Below, piece by piece: positions 21,868 to 28,942 of a stretch of 52,098 bases of DNA. Source of the DNA: Bacteroidaceae bacterium (GTDB lineage: Bacteria > Bacteroidota > Bacteroidia > Bacteroidales > Bacteroidaceae); the NCBI GenBank assembly GCA_017416805.1, contig JAFQBB010000049.1:1-52098 (forward strand), given 5' to 3'. The notes beneath the pieces were generated by a model. It did no database searches. It worked only from the letters and a program-made list of their open reading frames with translations, and had not been told where the DNA came from. A program made the translations under genes and the position numbers. Each line of letters opens with the position of its first letter. Position 1 is the stretch's first letter.

Positions 21868-24800
21868 TTACTTCACCAGAACTTTCTTACCGTTCATCAG
21901 ATAAACACCCTTATCCAGGCCTTCGAGTGAAGTGGCTGCTTTCTTCACGATGCGGCCGCTGAGGTCGAAGATGTCAGCAGGGGCAACCTCTACACCTACA
22001 GTCTGAATGCCGGTAGCGCCACCACGGGTGAGCTGTACCTCGGCATCAGATACCTCAACCATCACACCACGGCGTGTTGCCACGTAAGCATTGGTGATGC
22101 TGATGCTGGTTGCAGACTCGGCACTGACTGAAACTTCAAGCAGGCTGCCCGAAGCAAATGCCTCGTTGGTCAGTGAAACCACGGCTACACGTACCTGACC
22201 GTCACCCACTTCGCGGAACGATACACTGTGGTTGCTTCCGGCTGTCACGCGGATGTCATCGATGCTGACACCGGCAGGCAGGGTCATGTCATACTGCATG
22301 GCCACATAGCCACCGGCATTGCTCAGGCTCATGCCGAAGCCGTTCTGAGTCTCGGTGATATCCAAGGTCTCACGTACTATGTGGCGGGCGGTCAGCACAC
22401 TGGTAGTGTTGAGACCCAGTACGGAGTTGATGACCTGTACCACGTCATTAATCATTATCTGGTTGTCACCATTCATGTCGGCAGCGGCAAACACAAAGTT
22501 GTCGGCATAAGTTCCCAACACGGCATTGATGGTGAGCACCACATCGTTGATGGCTATCATGCCGTCATCGTTCACGTCGGCAGGAGTGTATGAAGGCACA
22601 GTAATGGTGGCCGTCACATCTTCCAGATCGTACATGGTTCCATCGACGGCTGAAATGTGGATGTTCTTGATGGAGATGGCCAAGTCACCCGAAATATTCT
22701 CACCACCAAGCAGGTTCAGGTAGAACAGGTTGCCACTGTTTCCCGAGAAGAGTGACGAGGTAAGCGAAGCCACAGCCATACGGATGGAGCCATCCTCCTG
22801 CAAAGCAGAGGTAATGGTCTGGTCGTTCATGCGATCTTCGTCGAGGGTGATGTCATACTTGCCCTTCTTGGTCTGAAGGGTGATGCCTTCGGGCAGATAG
22901 ATGTCGCACTGGAAGGCGGTAAATTCACTCTCGTTGGTCAAAGCTACAGGAAGCAGCATGGACTGTCCGGCACGCAGAGTGGTGTCGTTAAGAACGAAAG
23001 CATTATAGGCAGGAATCTCAGTACCCATGTACCACAACTCAAAGTTGTCGAAGAGAGTAAAGTATTCGCCATGGTCAATCGTATCTTTCTTTACACCCAA
23101 ACGTAAAGTTCCGTCAGTCACCTCTGCCAATACTGAATTTTCACTCCAATGGCCGTCCTTCATGAAATGTGCATCTGCAAATCTTGTACGAGGGATATAC
23201 CCCCACTCTGTGTTCTGATAGTTTTCTGTATCGAAAGAAGAACCTTCCTTCGGGTCGTCCAACAAGTGCATCAAGGGTGTCTGGGCATCGTTGGCATAGA
23301 GGTATGCACGCTGCACATTGGTTCCTGTCTTGTATTCCTCCACGAATGTTTCATAAGAACCCCGGTATGCACCCTGCACCTTCACGGTGTAGTATCCGTT
23401 AGGCAGGTTGGAGAGAGTTTGATGCACATCGAATCCCGATCCGTTCAGAGAGTCGGAAGTGACCCACTGTCCGGCATAATGTGCATTACCCCCATCAATA
23501 ACAAATTGAGGATCTCCCTGCCATGCCTTATTGCGTTCGCGGTCATTACGGCGGAATGTAGCCCCCTCAATCAGGAAAGTAGCATCCTGCGGTTGCTTGA
23601 AGGTAGCCTTGGCCAGATTCTCGTTCAGTTCGGCCATTACCTGCTCCTTGGTGAGAAGTTGCCACTGGGCTGCTTCGCTTGTAACGTCTGTCAAGTCAAG
23701 TGCTACCACACTGGTGTCGGCATAGCCTATATAGTTAGTTCCATCGGAAGTGATGGCATAATTGCCGTTCTCCAAACGGTCGAAGTACCAACCCAAAAGG
23801 ATTCCATCCATCCATCCTCCAGTTCCATCTGAAGCATTACCCATATAATGCTTGTTATTGCCATTATAGAGACGGGTATCGAGCAGGCGTGTGCCATCTG
23901 CCCGTACAGAAATCTTAATATCGAAAGGTATAGTGGACAACGAAGCTTTCACTTCCCAGTCATTGCCCGGTGAGAGATAAAGACCGGTAGCCACATTCTT
24001 CAGGTAATAGGTACCATCAGCAATATTAGCGGGTTTCTCGGTTCCAAGATAGTTAATCTGGAAATTGTCAAAGATAGTCCAGTCATTGGTTGATTCAGCA
24101 TTCTTCTTCACTCCCACCTTAAGTGTACTGTCAACCACCTCGGCAATAATAACGTGGGTATAGAGTCCCTCACTGAAGAAATGAGAAGCACCATGCTGAC
24201 AGTGAGGAACAACTCCCAAAGCGGTCTTGAAGCCATAGGAGAGATCGCCCTCCATAATAGTTGTCAACGAATCGGCATCCGTCTTGGCCTCGGTCATGAT
24301 GGATTTCAGCGGAGTACTGGCCTCGTTGGCATAGAAGATGGCATTCAGCGTCGGGGTACCTGCAGCATATTCGTTGGCCGCAATGGTCGGATTGTTGCCT
24401 CCACTACCTACACGATAGAATCCCTGTACCGACACACTGTAATAACCATTGGGCAGGCCTTTCAATGTCTGGTTTACATCGAACGTAGCGGCATTCCACT
24501 TCTCGGCATTGCGGTTCTCGTAAGCGCCACCAATAGCCGGATTACCGTTCCAACTTGCATTGCGTGTATCGTTCTGGTTGAACCCTGCACCAGGAAGCAT
24601 GAAAGTCATATCAATAGGATTGCCTTCGTTGGCATTCACTATATCCAAACTTGCAATGCGTTCCGACTTGGTAAGCAACTGCCACTCGGAAGTTTCACCC
24701 AAATCACCCAAAACCAATACTGTAGTCGTATCGGAACTGTTCAGGTAACGATTGTCATTGAACAATACATAATTGCCATTATCCAACTTGGAAACAACCC

Positions 24801-26670
24801 AAACTTGCTCGCTACCATCCAGATAGACCTTGCCATTTACGTCAAGGGCCAGATATTGGGTTTCAGTGTATGTTTTTCCGTAATTGCTCACCTTAGTGTC
24901 GATGACATACCGGGACAAACCTTTTGACGTGAATTTTACATCCACACCAACCTTACCCAGCGAAGCCTCAGTTCCGAAATGGTTTCCGGCCTCTAAGTAG
25001 CGTCCGGTTGCTACGTTTCTCAGATAGAAGGAAGAGTCTGCATTCACTTCAACGGCATTTGCACTACCTGCATACTCCAACTTGAAGTTGTCAAAGATGG
25101 TCCAGTCTCCAGCGCATGCTACAGTCTTGCGCACACCAATCCGCAGGTCACCGGGTTCAGAAAGAACATAAACGACCTTGTTGTCCTTGTACAGTCCCTT
25201 TTCATTGAATGCTGCATTGGCTTCATGTACATCACCAGGATAATTATTGGGGTCGAGGGTATAGGCCGATTCGGCAAAAAGAGACATTATTTTAGAATGA
25301 GAATCGTTGACATAGAGTTCGGCCAACAACTCTTCCGTACCATTCTGGAAGGAGTAGGCATCCCAACCGTGGCGATAGAAGCCTTGGCAAGAAAGGATAT
25401 AGGTTCCGGCAGGCATATTCTGCAACACCTGATAGTTGTCGAAGGTCTTGTTCCACTGCTCGGCCAAACTGCCATTGGCAGCAGTAAATGCGGTACCTGA
25501 CCATCCCTCTGCAGTTCTTCCACCTTCAACACTGGCGGTTGTTCCAGAGAAGTCCGCGTTGGTCAAAGTTATAGCTGTAACATCCTGAAATTCTACGATT
25601 TCCTTAAAGCTACACCACCAGGATGCCCCCTCGTAAGCCTCCTTGCTGCCTGCTGGGACACAGAGAATAACATTAGGATAGTTGCTGAATTCAGAGCCCA
25701 CCAATGCCAAGGGTGTAGCATTGCCTACGGTAACCAAAGCAAGTTTTTCACAACCAGAGAAAGCATATTCTCCTATACTCGTCAAACCTGCAGGGAGAGT
25801 GATGCTCGTCAATGAAGAACAATCCTGGAAAGCATTACCTTCTATACTCGTCAAACCGGCAGGGAGAGTGACGCTCGTCAAAGAAGAACAACCAGAGAAA
25901 GCATAAACTCCTATACTTGTCACACTGGCAGGAAGAGTGACGCTCGTCAAAGAAGAACAACCAGAGAAAGCCCAATCTCCTATACTCGTCACACCGGCAG
26001 GAAGAGTGATGCTCGTCAAAGAAGAACAACTAGAGAAAGCCCTTTCTCCTATACTCGTCACACCGGCAGGAAGAGTGATGCTCGTCAAAGAAGAACAACA
26101 CCAGAAAGCCCAATTTCCTATACTCGTCAAACCGGCAGGAAGAGTGATGCTCGTCAAAGAAGAACAACTAGAGAAAGCAGATGCTCCTATATTCGTCAAA
26201 CCGGCAGGAAGAGTGATGCTCGTCAAAGAAGAACAACCATAGAAAGCAAATTCTCCTATACTCGTCACACCGGCAGGAAGAGTGATGCTCTTCAAAGAAA
26301 AACAACCAGAGAAAGCCCTTTCTCCTATACTCGTCAAACCGTCAGGAAGAGTGACGCTCGTCAAAGAAGAACAATTCCCGAAAGCCCTTTCTCCTATACT
26401 CGTCACACCGGCAGGAAGAGTGATGCTCGTCAAAGAAGAACAACCAGAGAAAGCAGATGCTCCTATACTCGTCACATTATAGGTCTGCCCTCCAAATACA
26501 ACAGTGGAGGGGATATTCACAACACCCTTGTATTCCACACCGCTGGTTACCTCCACCGTCAAATCAGTCTCAGACGTGATATTGTAATAGATGAGATCTT
26601 TCTCAAAATCATACGCACTTACCATGAGACTGCATACTAAAGCTACAAATGTCAATAGATATTTTTTCAT
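21868..26670 (-). CDS. Large modular surface protein: BspA LRR, repeats, cohesin/dockerin-like
   Basis: A 1600-residue exported protein. Signal peptide MKKYLLTFVALVCSLMVSA starts at ATG 26670 (the open frame extends 27 bp further only to a TTG). Residues about 45-340 are some 12 near-identical LRR_5 repeats ([19 protein letters not shown]). Three related modules of about 300 residues start near 370, 690 and 1033 (NLPNGYY-, DWTIFDNF- and YYLKNVATG-like motifs). A cohesin-like domain near 1230-1350 precedes a dockerin-like pair of Ca loops at about 1362-1410 (DVNDDGMIAIND, DMNGDNQIMIND) and a second cohesin-like domain. The C-terminus DLSGRIVKK...GVYLMNGKKVLVK looks like a sorting tail. It probably binds a host or glycan ligand on the surface; no catalytic domain is visible. 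Confidence 0.85.
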   Translation of the reverse strand: MKKYLLTFVALVCSLMVSAYDFEKDLIYYNITSETDLTVEVTSGVEYKGVVNIPSTVVFGGQTYNVTSIGASAFSGCSSLTSITLPAGVTSIGERAFGNCSSLTSVTLPDGLTSIGERAFSGCFSLKSITLPAGVTSIGEFAFYGCSSLTSITLPAGLTNIGASAFSSCSSLTSITLPAGLTSIGNWAFWCCSSLTSITLPAGVTSIGERAFSSCSSLTSITLPAGVTSIGDWAFSGCSSLTSVTLPASVTSIGVYAFSGCSSLTSVTLPAGLTSIEGNAFQDCSSLTSITLPAGLTSIGEYAFSGCEKLALVTVGNATPLALVGSEFSNYPNVILCVPAGSKEAYEGASWWCSFKEIVEFQDVTAITLTNADFSGTTASVEGGRTAEGWSGTAFTAANGSLAEQWNKTFDNYQVLQNMPAGTYILSCQGFYRHGWDAYSFQNGTEELLAELYVNDSHSKIMSLFAESAYTLDPNNYPGDVHEANAAFNEKGLYKDNKVVYVLSEPGDLRIGVRKTVACAGDWTIFDNFKLEYAGSANAVEVNADSSFYLRNVATGRYLEAGNHFGTEASLGKVGVDVKFTSKGLSRYVIDTKVSNYGKTYTETQYLALDVNGKVYLDGSEQVWVVSKLDNGNYVLFNDNRYLNSSDTTTVLVLGDLGETSEWQLLTKSERIASLDIVNANEGNPIDMTFMLPGAGFNQNDTRNASWNGNPAIGGAYENRNAEKWNAATFDVNQTLKGLPNGYYSVSVQGFYRVGSGGNNPTIAANEYAAGTPTLNAIFYANEASTPLKSIMTEAKTDADSLTTIMEGDLSYGFKTALGVVPHCQHGASHFFSEGLYTHVIIAEVVDSTLKVGVKKNAESTNDWTIFDNFQINYLGTEKPANIADGTYYLKNVATGLYLSPGNDWEVKASLSTIPFDIKISVRADGTRLLDTRLYNGNNKHYMGNASDGTGGWMDGILLGWYFDRLENGNYAITSDGTNYIGYADTSVVALDLTDVTSEAAQWQLLTKEQVMAELNENLAKATFKQPQDATFLIEGATFRRNDRERNKAWQGDPQFVIDGGNAHYAGQWVTSDSLNGSGFDVHQTLSNLPNGYYTVKVQGAYRGSYETFVEEYKTGTNVQRAYLYANDAQTPLMHLLDDPKEGSSFDTENYQNTEWGYIPRTRFADAHFMKDGHWSENSVLAEVTDGTLRLGVKKDTIDHGEYFTLFDNFELWYMGTEIPAYNAFVLNDTTLRAGQSMLLPVALTNESEFTAFQCDIYLPEGITLQTKKGKYDITLDEDRMNDQTITSALQEDGSIRMAVASLTSSLFSGNSGNLFYLNLLGGENISGDLAISIKNIHISAVDGTMYDLEDVTATITVPSYTPADVNDDGMIAINDVVLTINAVLGTYADNFVFAAADMNGDNQIMINDVVQVINSVLGLNTTSVLTARHIVRETLDITETQNGFGMSLSNAGGYVAMQYDMTLPAGVSIDDIRVTAGSNHSVSFREVGDGQVRVAVVSLTNEAFASGSLLEVSVSAESATSISITNAYVATRRGVMVEVSDAEVQLTRGGATGIQTVGVEVAPADIFDLSGRIVKKAATSLEGLDKGVYLMNGKKVLVK

Positions 26671-26821
26671 CTTACAGTTTTTATTAAGGTTTAACAAATT
26701 GTCAATTTTTTACCCATGCGGGGAGAAGAGCCATTTTCCGATTTCACTTTTGCAGGCTTCTTCTTCCCATCAGTTTTATTATTTTCTCGTTCAAGATTTA
26801 TCAAGTGACTAAATCTCGCGC

Positions 26822-26829: not shown

Positions 26830-27446
26830 CTGAGAAAAGCAAAATCACCCCCTATAAGGTCAAATCTTGTTAACCTTGTAAAGATATATGTCTAAGCTAT
26901 ACGCTTTTAGCACCAAAAGCCTCATTTCTGAAGGGTTAAGTTTTCCACATATCCGGCACAACATTCTCCGTGCAAATACATCATATTCCCTTATTCCGTC
27001 GCAAAAATATACTAAAAAAATGGAATATTCTTTGTCCATTTTGTCCTTGTTTGATTAGAGACTAAAAAATGACATTCAGAATGTTTTTAGGCACGGATGA
27101 CGCGGATTAACACGGATTAAATTTTAAAACGCAGAGACGCGGAGTTTTTTATTTAAAGTTCAAGGTTTAAAGTTCAATTCAAAATTATTGATGTCTGGCA
27201 AACATCCATAATTTACCTTACATTTTGTCAATTCAGAAATGTATATTTCCTCGTCAGAAACGAATAAATATGCAAACCAGACACTCTCCGCACACCCGTT
27301 CTTGCATATTCATACAGCATATCCCTCTTTGTAAAGAACTCTTTTTGCCTGTCCTGGTGGCAGAAAGAGGTAGAAAAACGTCTTTTTGCCCTCCGACCTC
27401 TCACTCCCTCCCCACCATCCCTCTCCGAAGGAGGCGATTCACCTAT

Positions 27447-27500
27447 CCTAAACATCCGGTGAAGAAATCCTAAACATCCGCCGAAGAAATCCTAAACATC
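27447..27500. repeat. Direct repeat with 22-bp period (CCTAAACATC)
   Basis: CCTAAACATC starts at 27447, 27469 and 27491. The intervening bases are CGGTGAAGAAAT and CGCCGAAGAAAT, so two full 22-bp units plus a partial one lie inside the 600-bp element. Confidence 0.75.
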
Positions 27501-27566: not shown

Positions 27567-27874
27567 AGGCTTTTACTCACCATCGTCACCACCACTACCC
27601 TTCTCATCATCCCAACTCCGGCCCATGCCGCCATGACCCAGATTTTCTATTCCAGGGAAAGCTGGCAGAGTCTATCTCTTTGTCTTTCTGACGATTAAAG
27701 ATTCCTTAACTAAAATCCCTGATGCATACGCCTCCATTTGTCCCTTTGTCAGGAAATACAGAATCCTTGCACGACAAATATACAGATTTGACAAAATGTA
27801 AGGTAAATTCAAGTTTAGTTCGGGGTAAGCCCCTCATCAGTTTCACAGTCGCAAGCTTTGGCCTTTCAGTAGTT

Positions 27875-27961
27875 AAAGTTTAAAGTTCAAGGTTCAAAGG
27901 TTCAAACCGCCTTCCTTTTGAACTTTGAACCTTAAACTTTGAACCTTGAACTTTAAACTTT
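27875..27961. repeat. GTTCAAGGTTCAAAG long inverted repeat
   Basis: The 25 bases at 27875-27899 (starting AAAGTTTAAAGTTCAAGG) are the exact complement of 27937-27961. Further related GTTCAA/TTGAAC units lie in the loop and near 27155-27180. Confidence 0.8.
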
Positions 27962-28009
27962 GAATAAAAAAAACTCTCCGCAATTTAATTGAAATCAGGG
28001 AGAAAATAG

Positions 28010-28087
28010 GAACATAGGTTCAAGTGGCCACGAACATATGTTCGTTGGCATTTGAACATATGTTCAGAGGCACTTGAACATATGTTC
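28010..28087. repeat. Array of GAACATATGTTC palindromes, 22-bp period
   Basis: The 12-bp palindrome GAACATATGTTC occurs at 28032, 28054 and 28076, with a one-base variant (GAACATAGGTTC) at 28010: four copies at exactly 22-bp intervals. The 10-bp spacers differ but keep GGC (AAGTGGCCAC, GTTGGCATTT, AGAGGCACTT). Confidence 0.85.
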
Positions 28088-28129
28088 ATTTTTTAGACCT
28101 GTTTTCTTGAAATTAGGGAGGGAGATAAG

Positions 28130-28185
28130 TATCTTAAGATAAATGCCCCGAGAAGTTAAGATAAAATGCCAAATATCTTAAGAAA
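28130..28185. repeat. Array of TATCTTAAGATA palindromes, 22-bp period
   Basis: TATCTTAAGATA at 28130, GAAGTTAAGATA at 28152 and TATCTTAAGAAA at 28174, again at exactly 22-bp steps. The 10-bp spacers carry TGCC or GGCC (AATGCCCCGA, AAATGCCAAA, CTTGGCCGAT). Confidence 0.75.
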
Positions 28186-28222
28186 CTTGGCCGATGAACC
28201 TATAATGCGTCACTGATTTCTT

Positions 28223-28313
28223 AGACGCAAATGACGCAGATGACGCAGATTCATAGTAATTATTATAACCAACAGGTTACAATTTATCTGCGTCACCCGC
28301 GTCATCCGCGTCT
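28223..28313 (-). terminator. Long hairpin at the 3' end of the rnf operon
   Basis: The 28 bases at 28223-28250 (AGACGCAAATGACGCAGATG...) pair with 28286-28313. The four mismatches become G-U pairs only in RNA read from the minus strand, the direction of rnf transcription. The stem ends 27 bp past the rnfA stop. Confidence 0.6.
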
Positions 28314-28339
28314 AAAAGATTGAAAAAGGGGGAAGAAGA

Positions 28340-28942
28340 TTATTTCAATCCGAACAATACTGACAGGCCACCATCAACACCACTGAAGCCCATGAAGGCC
28401 ATGGCAAGGAGACCTGCAACAACGAGGGCAATAGACATGCCCTGCATACCCTTAGGTACGTTTACAAGGCTCAACTGCTCGCGGATACCGGCAAAGATAA
28501 TCAGTGCCAAGGCAAAACCAAGAGCGGTAGAGAAGGCGTAAACCACACCTGTAAGGAGGTCGTACTGCTTCTGGATAACCAAGATGGCCACACCAAGGAT
28601 ACAGCAGTTGGTGGTAATCAAAGGAAGGAACACACCGAGGGCCTGATACAGGGCGGGTGATACTTTCTTCAACACAATCTCAACCATCTGCACCAAAGCG
28701 GCAATCACCAAGATGAAGGTGATGGTCTGCAAGTAACCAAGGCCGTTGGCATCGAGCACATAAATCTGAATCAAATAAGTCACAATCGTAGCGATAGTCA
28801 ACACAAAAGCTACGGCAGCACCCATACCTGCAGCAGTCTCAACTTTCTTGGAGACGCCCAAGAACGGACAGATACCGAGGAACTGTGAGAACACCACGTT
28901 GTTCACGAAAATGGCGGTGATAAATATCAATAAATATTCCAT
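28340..28942 (-). CDS. rnfA: Rnf complex subunit A
   Basis: Integral membrane subunit of the ion-translocating ferredoxin:NAD oxidoreductase. Six hydrophobic helices span the 200 residues. Family hallmarks are LLIFITAIFVNNVVFSQFLGICPFLGVSKK at the start and PLITTNCCILGVA in the middle; the Cys near the two membrane faces (GICPF and TNCC) match those thought to bind an Fe-S centre between RnfA and RnfE. It is the last gene of rseC-rnfBCDGEA, 44 bp after rnfE, followed by a strong hairpin. Confidence 0.95.
   Translation of the reverse strand: MEYLLIFITAIFVNNVVFSQFLGICPFLGVSKKVETAAGMGAAVAFVLTIATIVTYLIQIYVLDANGLGYLQTITFILVIAALVQMVEIVLKKVSPALYQALGVFLPLITTNCCILGVAILVIQKQYDLLTGVVYAFSTALGFALALIIFAGIREQLSLVNVPKGMQGMSIALVVAGLLAMAFMGFSGVDGGLSVLFGLK

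Follow-up and report, generated by a model that had tools for sequence, protein, structure and literature searches.

Intergenic arrays of differing palindromes at a nearly constant 22-bp step in several Bacteroidaceae-type genomes

Why should two different palindromes, lying side by side beyond the 3' end of one gene, be repeated with the same exact step of 22 bp? The question is raised by a stretch of 52,098 nucleotides from a Bacteroidaceae bacterium (here called the window), which is contig 17 of a 64-contig, 3.16-Mb genome. We describe the two arrays, their copies and carrier, and the step in related genomes, and then weigh what could hold the step constant.

Palindrome arrays near rnfA and their copies in the genome

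The arrays, named A and B, and the neighbouring gene are as follows.

28010..28087, no strand: A array, 12-bp palindrome in four units (GAACATAGGTTC followed by three of GAACATATGTTC), 22-bp steps exact
28130..28185, no strand: B array, three TATCTTAAGATA-type units, steps of 22 bp
28196..28207, no strand: degenerate fourth unit of the B array, GAACCTATAATG, bearing an A-type half-site, 22 bp past the previous unit
28340..28942, minus strand: rnfA, 3' end facing the arrays (context; Pfam PF02508, NCBIfam TIGR01943)

The A units start at 28010 (GAACATAGGTTC, one change relative to GAACATATGTTC), 28032, 28054 and 28076; the B units are TATCTTAAGATA at 28130, GAAGTTAAGATA at 28152 (three changes) and TATCTTAAGAAA at 28174 (one change). 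The first-pass annotation had given both arrays a period of 22 bp and a GGC or GCC core in their spacers, and both statements were borne out: all steps between its listed units are exactly 22 bp, and the core is present in 5/5 spacers between them. The unit at 28196 was missing from its list. At this fourth position other B arrays often have CATTATAGGTTC on the opposite strand. The units at 28152-28163 and 28196-28207 are hybrids of A-like and B-like half-sites, and such hybrids were also seen in other B arrays.

The rnfA product scored 273.5 bits against TIGR01943 (cut-off 229.3). Its 3' end lies 155 bp from the end of the B array, and the next same-strand gene (21868-26697, minus strand) starts about 1.3 kb past the arrays; the earlier remark that the region is not upstream of any gene nearby thus holds as regards promoters. 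Among relatives, genomes G207 and G137 have a B array downstream of rnfA, at about 65 bp and about 530 bp respectively, and in G036 the same region contains a 23-bp ATACGTAT array; no array was seen by eye in the 700 bp 3' of rnfA in seven others (G123, G221, G094, G109, G008, G077 and G058). A conserved position of the arrays 3' of rnfA is not established.

The window contains several other repeats. At 27445-27500 there is a third 22-bp tandem repeat, ATCCTAAACATCCGCCGAAGAA, which is non-palindromic and has relatives elsewhere in this genome (L217, L219, L222, L231) and in G151 (L266). Repeats of 7 bp (AAAGTTCAA type) form inverted blocks at 27870-27966, with a weak sub-threshold match to an Rfam miRNA model, and an inverted repeat of GACGCAGATGACGC type adjoins the arrays at 28216-28320; a similar CGCGGATTA-type repeat lies in the array-free rnfA 3' region of G123. 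Tandem repeats of 69 bp occupy 143-1985 and 25750-26476, the latter within a leucine-rich-repeat-like protein of BSPA type. The contig end (51913-52098) consists of blocks of 7-bp repeats (GTAGGGT / AACCCTA).

Through genome-wide search, GAACATATGTTC was found 77 times in 3.16 Mb, mostly at exact 22-bp steps, and the reversed control pattern not at all. Pairs at 22 bp within 3 mismatches numbered 72 for the A type and 30 for the B type (controls 0). From 38 stretches and the window we read at least 26 A and at least 16 B arrays, including two A arrays of just two units. Successive near-consensus A units of this genome (distances up to 70 bp) are 22 bp apart in 63/64 cases. Palindrome bases are better conserved than spacer bases; GGC or GCC occurs in 56/70, 133/169 and 22/37 of the A and B spacers and is less frequent (30/105) in the arrays of G008, a genome of the same genus. 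The observation in the window is therefore confirmed as real, and it extends to several related genomes.

Another dispersed 22-bp element of this genome (L216 15756-15860, L222 1366-1473, L229 4298-4380) has two palindromes in alternation, TTCACAnCTGTGAA and AAGAGATCTCTT, whose centres lie 11 bp from each other; G207 has a related array on the 3' side of rnfA.

The 22-bp step and the palindromes in related genomes

Pairs within 2 mismatches were found for A in 12/301 and for B in 8/301 genomes of the family, this genome counted, so these two palindromes are absent from most family genomes. In a collection of 84,980 species the exact A pair occurred in 55 stretches, of which 52 bear Bacteroidales-type titles, many from rumen or gut, and three are actinobacterial. 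The latter (L145 4866, L149 2856 and L162 3301; two from Microthrix and one from Acidimicrobiaceae) show SOS-box-like palindromes at 22 bp and are taken as unrelated SOS-type sites. No exact A or B pair was present in IMG/VR, the window stretch had no similarity in plasmids or phages, and one G008 element had none in plasmids; a phage or plasmid module was rejected on these results.

Other genomes have other palindromes. In G008 we found 204 pairs of AAACAATATTGTTT at 22 bp within 3 mismatches, and none in the other 14 genomes of the genus. A generic scan of loci preselected for 22-bp arrays gave 87 palindromic arrays at 22 bp, one at 15 bp and zero at the remaining periods from 14 to 40, a contrast biased by that selection; further palindromes in these loci were of TTCATTAATGAA, TGAATCGATTCA and TGAGTTAACTCG type. 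One locus of G010 (L108 1501) differs from the other arrays in that GAACATATGTTGATGGGACGTA is repeated five times in tandem at 22 bp with invariant spacers.

We also surveyed 60 stretches (1.2 Mb) of 12 family genomes for palindromic arrays of three units at periods from 13 to 40. There were 14 arrays at 22 bp, two at 23 bp and none at the other 26 periods, with palindromes AAGAGATCTCTT, AAACAATATTGTTT and TCACTCGAGTCA at 22 bp. Seven of the 12 genomes were positive; G109, G094, G141, G078 and G137 had no such array in the survey. Eight of the 12 (G000, G141, G152, G010, G078, G151, G137 and G221) were already known for A-like or B-like pairs, and four of the 16 arrays (L258, L268 and L272 at 22 bp, L248 at 23 bp) lie in places seen before; moreover, among the 14 arrays at 22 bp, seven belong to one G008 element type and three to one element of this genome. 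The array rate within the family is inflated for these reasons, and the contrast between periods is unaffected by the choice of genomes, save through the already known places. Twenty genomes from as many other families, sampled over 394 kb, gave zero palindromic arrays at any period, which is a weak contrast considering that about 4.6 would be expected at the inflated in-family rate; the two tandem repeats at 22 bp in that sample are both non-palindromic.

Counting tandem repeats of any kind in the survey, the commonest periods were 14 (41), 22 (36), 12 (33) and 21 (30). Among periods of at least 16 that are not multiples of 3, 22 (36) came first, followed by 16 (12), 23 (8) and 19 and 20 (1 each), whereas periods 25, 26 and 28 were absent. 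In 17/36 of the 22-bp repeats the consensus held a palindrome of 5-6 of 6 pairs, vs 8/30 other repeats of that kind.

The spacing of units tells the same. Outside this genome, A units are 22 bp apart in 154/161 cases, 23 bp in 2 and 44 bp in 5 (the three actinobacterial loci having been dropped beforehand). For B units the distance is 22 bp in 33/41 and 44 bp in 8, and for G008-type units 22 bp in 44/68, 44 bp in 22, and 23 and 45 bp in 1 each; a distance of 44 bp is a skipped unit. These are, then, noncoding intergenic arrays of several Bacteroidaceae-type genomes, in which a palindrome of 12-14 bp is repeated, usually two to six times, at a 22-bp step; between genomes the palindrome varies and the step hardly does. 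This is the outcome that the first-pass annotation had proposed to look for in related genomes: in this genome and its relatives the step is nearly invariant and the palindromes differ. A coding repeat was rejected, since 22 is not a multiple of 3 and nearly all arrays are intergenic.

Carrier element, gene position and folding

The flanks of the arrays in this genome often share inverted ends (TIR), GGYTCTTCTGCAATTTRGTTGAAA. Within 3 mismatches there were 24 forward and 21 reverse matches (control 1 and 0). At a limit of 4/20 mismatches, which random flanks reach in 0.13%, the TIR is present on at least one side of 27/42 arrays (19/26 A and 8/16 B) and on both sides of 14 (8 A and 6 B). Copies with two ends are mostly 158-176 bp long, one being 122 bp. 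Target duplications are clear in 7/18 two-ended copies, where the 8-bp flanks agree at 8/8 positions in four and 7/8 in three (random 8-bp pairs match 7/8 with a chance of 0.045%); the count comes from 19 paired-end rows representing 18 elements, L060 appearing twice, and 12 rows had 6/8 or fewer in that register. Clear duplications occur with both A and B carriers. The copies carrying A and those carrying B have the ends and the right arm in common, while the array and the left inner part are different. The carrier in this genome is thus a MITE family with two array kinds, and the window contains two truncated copies fused 3' of rnfA, with the fusion point at 28106/28107:

27974..27994, minus strand: remnant of the MITE TIR beyond the A array, CTCTCCGCAATTTAATTGAAA, 4/20 mismatches
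28088..28106, minus strand: inner arm of the A-carrying MITE, ATTTTTTAGACCTGTTTTC, outer end missing (element comparison)
28107..28129, minus strand: inner arm of the MITE that carries B, TTGAAATTAGGGAGGGAGATAAG, joined to the A element (element comparison)

The A element keeps this one remnant, and the B element of the window has no recognisable TIR on either side within 8 mismatches.

ISL3 insertion sequences have TIRs beginning GG(C/T)TCTTC and make 8-bp target duplications, and in both respects the MITE resembles that family. The ISL3 transposase domain PF01610, on the other hand, had 0 matches in this 91%-complete genome and was present in 4/14 control genomes; an ISL3 parent of the MITE within this genome was rejected on that result.

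Not every array has such ends. In this genome 15/42 arrays have no TIR within 4 mismatches; some of them are decayed MITEs, and others, for example L033, L034, L052, L054, L055 and L058, have at least 7 mismatches on both sides. Among the arrays listed from relatives, L106 alone has the TIR (exact, on one side), and the others differ at 6/20 positions or more. The first-pass annotation had named mapping to a known transposon as something that would refute its reading. This came true in part, as 27/42 arrays have MITE ends; the period, however, is not explained by the MITE, because arrays without ends exist and unrelated palindromes hold the 22-bp step.

Two explanations follow from the carrier. 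The first is a neutral or selfish minisatellite, in which slippage-made repeats would hitch-hike in MITE-like elements with no function for the cell, and 22 bp would reflect the mode of origin or inheritance. The MITE ends and target duplications counted above agree with it, as do the G008 arrays, which lie in dispersed elements sharing leader and tail; non-palindromic 22-bp repeats exist too, as at 27445-27500 in the window, and in P. gingivalis a 23-nt minisatellite, BrickBuilt, is likewise housed in a MITE (PMC4596501). It does not account so well for one period with unrelated palindromes and none at 26 other periods, for arrays without MITE ends, or for the exchange of A and B within one MITE backbone with the step unchanged. 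We regard the minisatellite as possible but on the unlikely side. The second explanation takes the arrays as subterminal binding sites of the transposase that moves the elements. The arrays do lie inside TIR-bounded elements, and the ends of Tn7 and Mu carry repeated sites of about 22 bp. Yet copies of one backbone, with a single TIR, contain A in some cases and B in others, where one transposase should need one site; arrays also occur without these TIRs, and the ISL3-type transposase domain was not found in this genome. Transposase sites appear very improbable to us.

The position of the arrays relative to genes was compared with array-free gaps, using home-made gene calls; a cruder ORF call placed 16 arrays within ORFs, mostly short, and these were lost under codon scoring. 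The A and B arrays without a close TIR lie in 25 convergent, 28 tandem and 7 divergent gaps (n=60), against 10, 58 and 32 for array-free gaps (n=100); convergent gaps are enriched (Fisher P 7e-6) and divergent gaps depleted (P 0.004). The 60 are those flanked by a called gene on each side, after exclusion of 21 arrays at sequence edges and 2 within ORFs (L161, L173), and they include four decayed MITE copies (L031, L040, L045, and L048 at 11139), without which the counts are 23, 26 and 7 (n=56; convergent P 1e-5). Arrays with the TIR lie in 11 convergent, 6 tandem and 0 divergent gaps (n=17; 2 at edges). The G008 arrays show no convergent bias (4, 10 and 9, n=23, vs 23, 58 and 32, n=113; P 1.0).

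The adjoining genes are unrelated to each other: 25 of the 30 scanned (of 136 listed) match Pfam at 1e-6, and no Pfam family occurs in two of the 30, one HTH_3 protein being among them. A linked regulator or regulon was rejected, as no family recurs among these 30 neighbours.

Position also bears on the idea that the arrays are SOS operators, that is, LexA sites. GAACATATGTTC equals a LexA box of Gram-positive bacteria. The same 12-mer appears in four papers of the literature available, one of them on the Staphylococcus SOS response and another on phage SP-beta, and it is paired in like manner at the three actinobacterial loci; in L149 and L162 the pair lies between divergent ORFs. The arrays, however, are rare between divergent genes (7/60 vs 32/100 array-free gaps), on which ground SOS operators were rejected, and the step is common to unrelated palindromes; we give this idea almost no weight.

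The convergent enrichment of A and B arrays (25/60 vs 10/100) would suit a REP/BIME-like or terminator-like hairpin, formed in RNA or single-stranded DNA and acting in termination, mRNA protection or gyrase/topology at gene ends. As single strands, 9/10 sequences fold better than their shuffles, with z from -3.9 to -11.1: the window A element gave -8.9 and -10.8, two RUI435 arrays -11.1 and -7.6, and five others -3.9 to -8.6. This is not independent support, because any tandem row of palindromes folds so, and the window B array folds little better than its shuffles (z -1.4). The G008 arrays, moreover, lack the convergent bias, and Rfam searches of 8 sources gave 3 matches at E 0.1 or lower, none reaching the gathering score and zero on an array; a known structured RNA was rejected accordingly for these sources.

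Substitutions within units offer a further comparison. The A units (n=316) have 126 one-sided changes, 0 complementary double changes and 1 non-complementary double, where independence predicts about 3.5 doubles, about 1.2 of them complementary; the B units (n=75) have 65 one-sided changes, 0 complementary doubles and 3 non-complementary, where about 2.9 doubles and about 1 complementary are expected. The missing complementary doubles are low-power evidence, since only about one is expected for each type. Among 19 G008 units there are 3 with a complementary double change, all at one pair. In arrays of at least 4 units, facing spacers pair no better than random (3.95 v 4.55, 6.04 v 5.76, 5.55 v 6.33). 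The lack of a compensation excess and the unpaired facing spacers lean, with modest power, towards dyad recognition of duplex DNA over hairpins, and we consider a hairpin function doubtful.

A possible row of protein dimers and comparison with known systems

The reading we prefer, with a confidence that stays slightly short of even, is a row of stacked protein dimers on the arrays; the neutral minisatellite comes next. The functional core would be the array itself, whose palindromes would serve in a row as dyad sites of a putative dimeric DNA-binding protein. Dimers would pack side by side, one every two turns, and contacts between neighbouring dimers would fix the step; differing palindromes would correspond to differing proteins or to a shifted specificity. 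A spacing that outlives its sequence points to a constraint other than sequence, most simply such contacts. These rows may act in chromosome organisation or at the boundaries of transcription domains and not in promoter control, because few A and B arrays fall between divergent genes and the genes flanking them are unrelated to one another.

The first-pass annotation had suggested stacked binding of a dimeric protein on one DNA face. For this, the step is real and shared by different palindromes, and the one-sided changes fit half-sites, though as a weak test; the MITE ends at 27/42 arrays speak on the other side. Considering that a DNA turn is 10.5 bp, 22 bp makes 2.1 turns, so a strict face alignment would drift. 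That units are conserved within one family says little for function, because repeats spread by transposition also look conserved. A binding protein was not identified among the neighbouring genes, the sole proteins searched (30 scanned).

The distribution of arrays along a chromosome could be followed in G008, where about 71 arrays were compiled from limited-mismatch patterns, three of them from among the matches listed. They sit in dispersed elements with several conserved leader and tail types. The GC skew of sampled stretches flips at 0.50-0.64 Mb and at 2.25-2.35 Mb, with an outlier stretch at 2.70 Mb, and the flips are presumed to be the origin and the terminus. Within 350 kb of the skew-defined terminus there are 3/71 arrays vs 13.4 expected (P 3e-4), in a window picked post hoc. 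Within 500 kb there are 10, 8 and 5 arrays vs 19.2 expected with the terminus set at 2.2, 2.3 and 2.4 Mb, and when all 1.1-Mb windows were scanned the emptiest held 7, where simulations average 13.7 (P 0.002). The largest array-free gap coincides with the presumed origin (544-910 kb, P 0.049); the 350-kb origin window holds 9 arrays vs 13.4 expected (P 0.11), which is not significantly poor. This scarcity at the terminus comes from one near-closed genome, and insertion bias could produce the pattern. With respect to replication the G008 arrays had no significant orientation (about 19/28 by eye).

We might speculate further, at a level we hold to be quite improbable, that Bacteroidaceae chromosomes carry dispersed 22-bp-step arrays that would be coated by fast-changing dimeric nucleoid proteins and excluded from the terminus, forming a nucleoid-occlusion or chromosome-domain system; the sites would be provided and moved around by mobile elements, while the sequence recognised would turn over between species. 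We know of no nucleoid-occlusion or chromosome-domain system of such kind in the phylum. If a protein is behind the step, the arrays would make chromosome organisation in gut Bacteroidaceae accessible from sequence and would show mobile elements as distributors of sites. If there is none, they are still a frequent repeat type in some such genomes, of use in typing and perhaps a cause of assembly gaps.

Several known systems are comparable in part. Sites of Noc in Bacillus subtilis and SlmA in E. coli are about 70 dispersed palindromes that are scarce around the terminus, according to the part of the source available (PMC4331003). G008 has about 71 arrays and a possibly comparable scarcity near its presumed terminus; unlike those single sites, its arrays are borne by dispersed repeats, and its largest gap is at the presumed origin. 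REP/BIME sequences are likewise clustered extragenic palindromes in many copies, and the A and B arrays share a bias to convergent gaps with them; the units here, however, are 12-14 bp at one fixed 22-bp step and show no compensation excess.

In the open-licence literature on palindromic or intergenic repeats in Prevotella, Paraprevotella and Bacteroidales and on REP/RAYT in Bacteroidetes, no title describes this class. The closest precedent is BrickBuilt, whose 23-nt minisatellite lies with leader, tail and TIRs; the accessible part of that report (PMC4596501) counts 19 forms for strain ATCC 33277, describes homologues in P. gulae and mentions 22-nt repeats for strain W83. Both are intergenic MITE-like elements with an internal tandem repeat of nearly equal length (23 vs 22). 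BrickBuilt has IS5-like TIRs of GAGACCTTTGCA type, which differ from the TIR of the MITE here, and target duplications of variable length; it is reported for the species P. gingivalis and P. gulae. That part of the report gives no description of its repeat as palindromic. In the arrays reported here the 22-bp units are palindromic, one MITE carries two types of array, and the duplications are 8 bp long; arrays also exist without MITE ends, and in other genomes other palindromes keep the same step. What is new relative to BrickBuilt is the constant step with changing palindromes.
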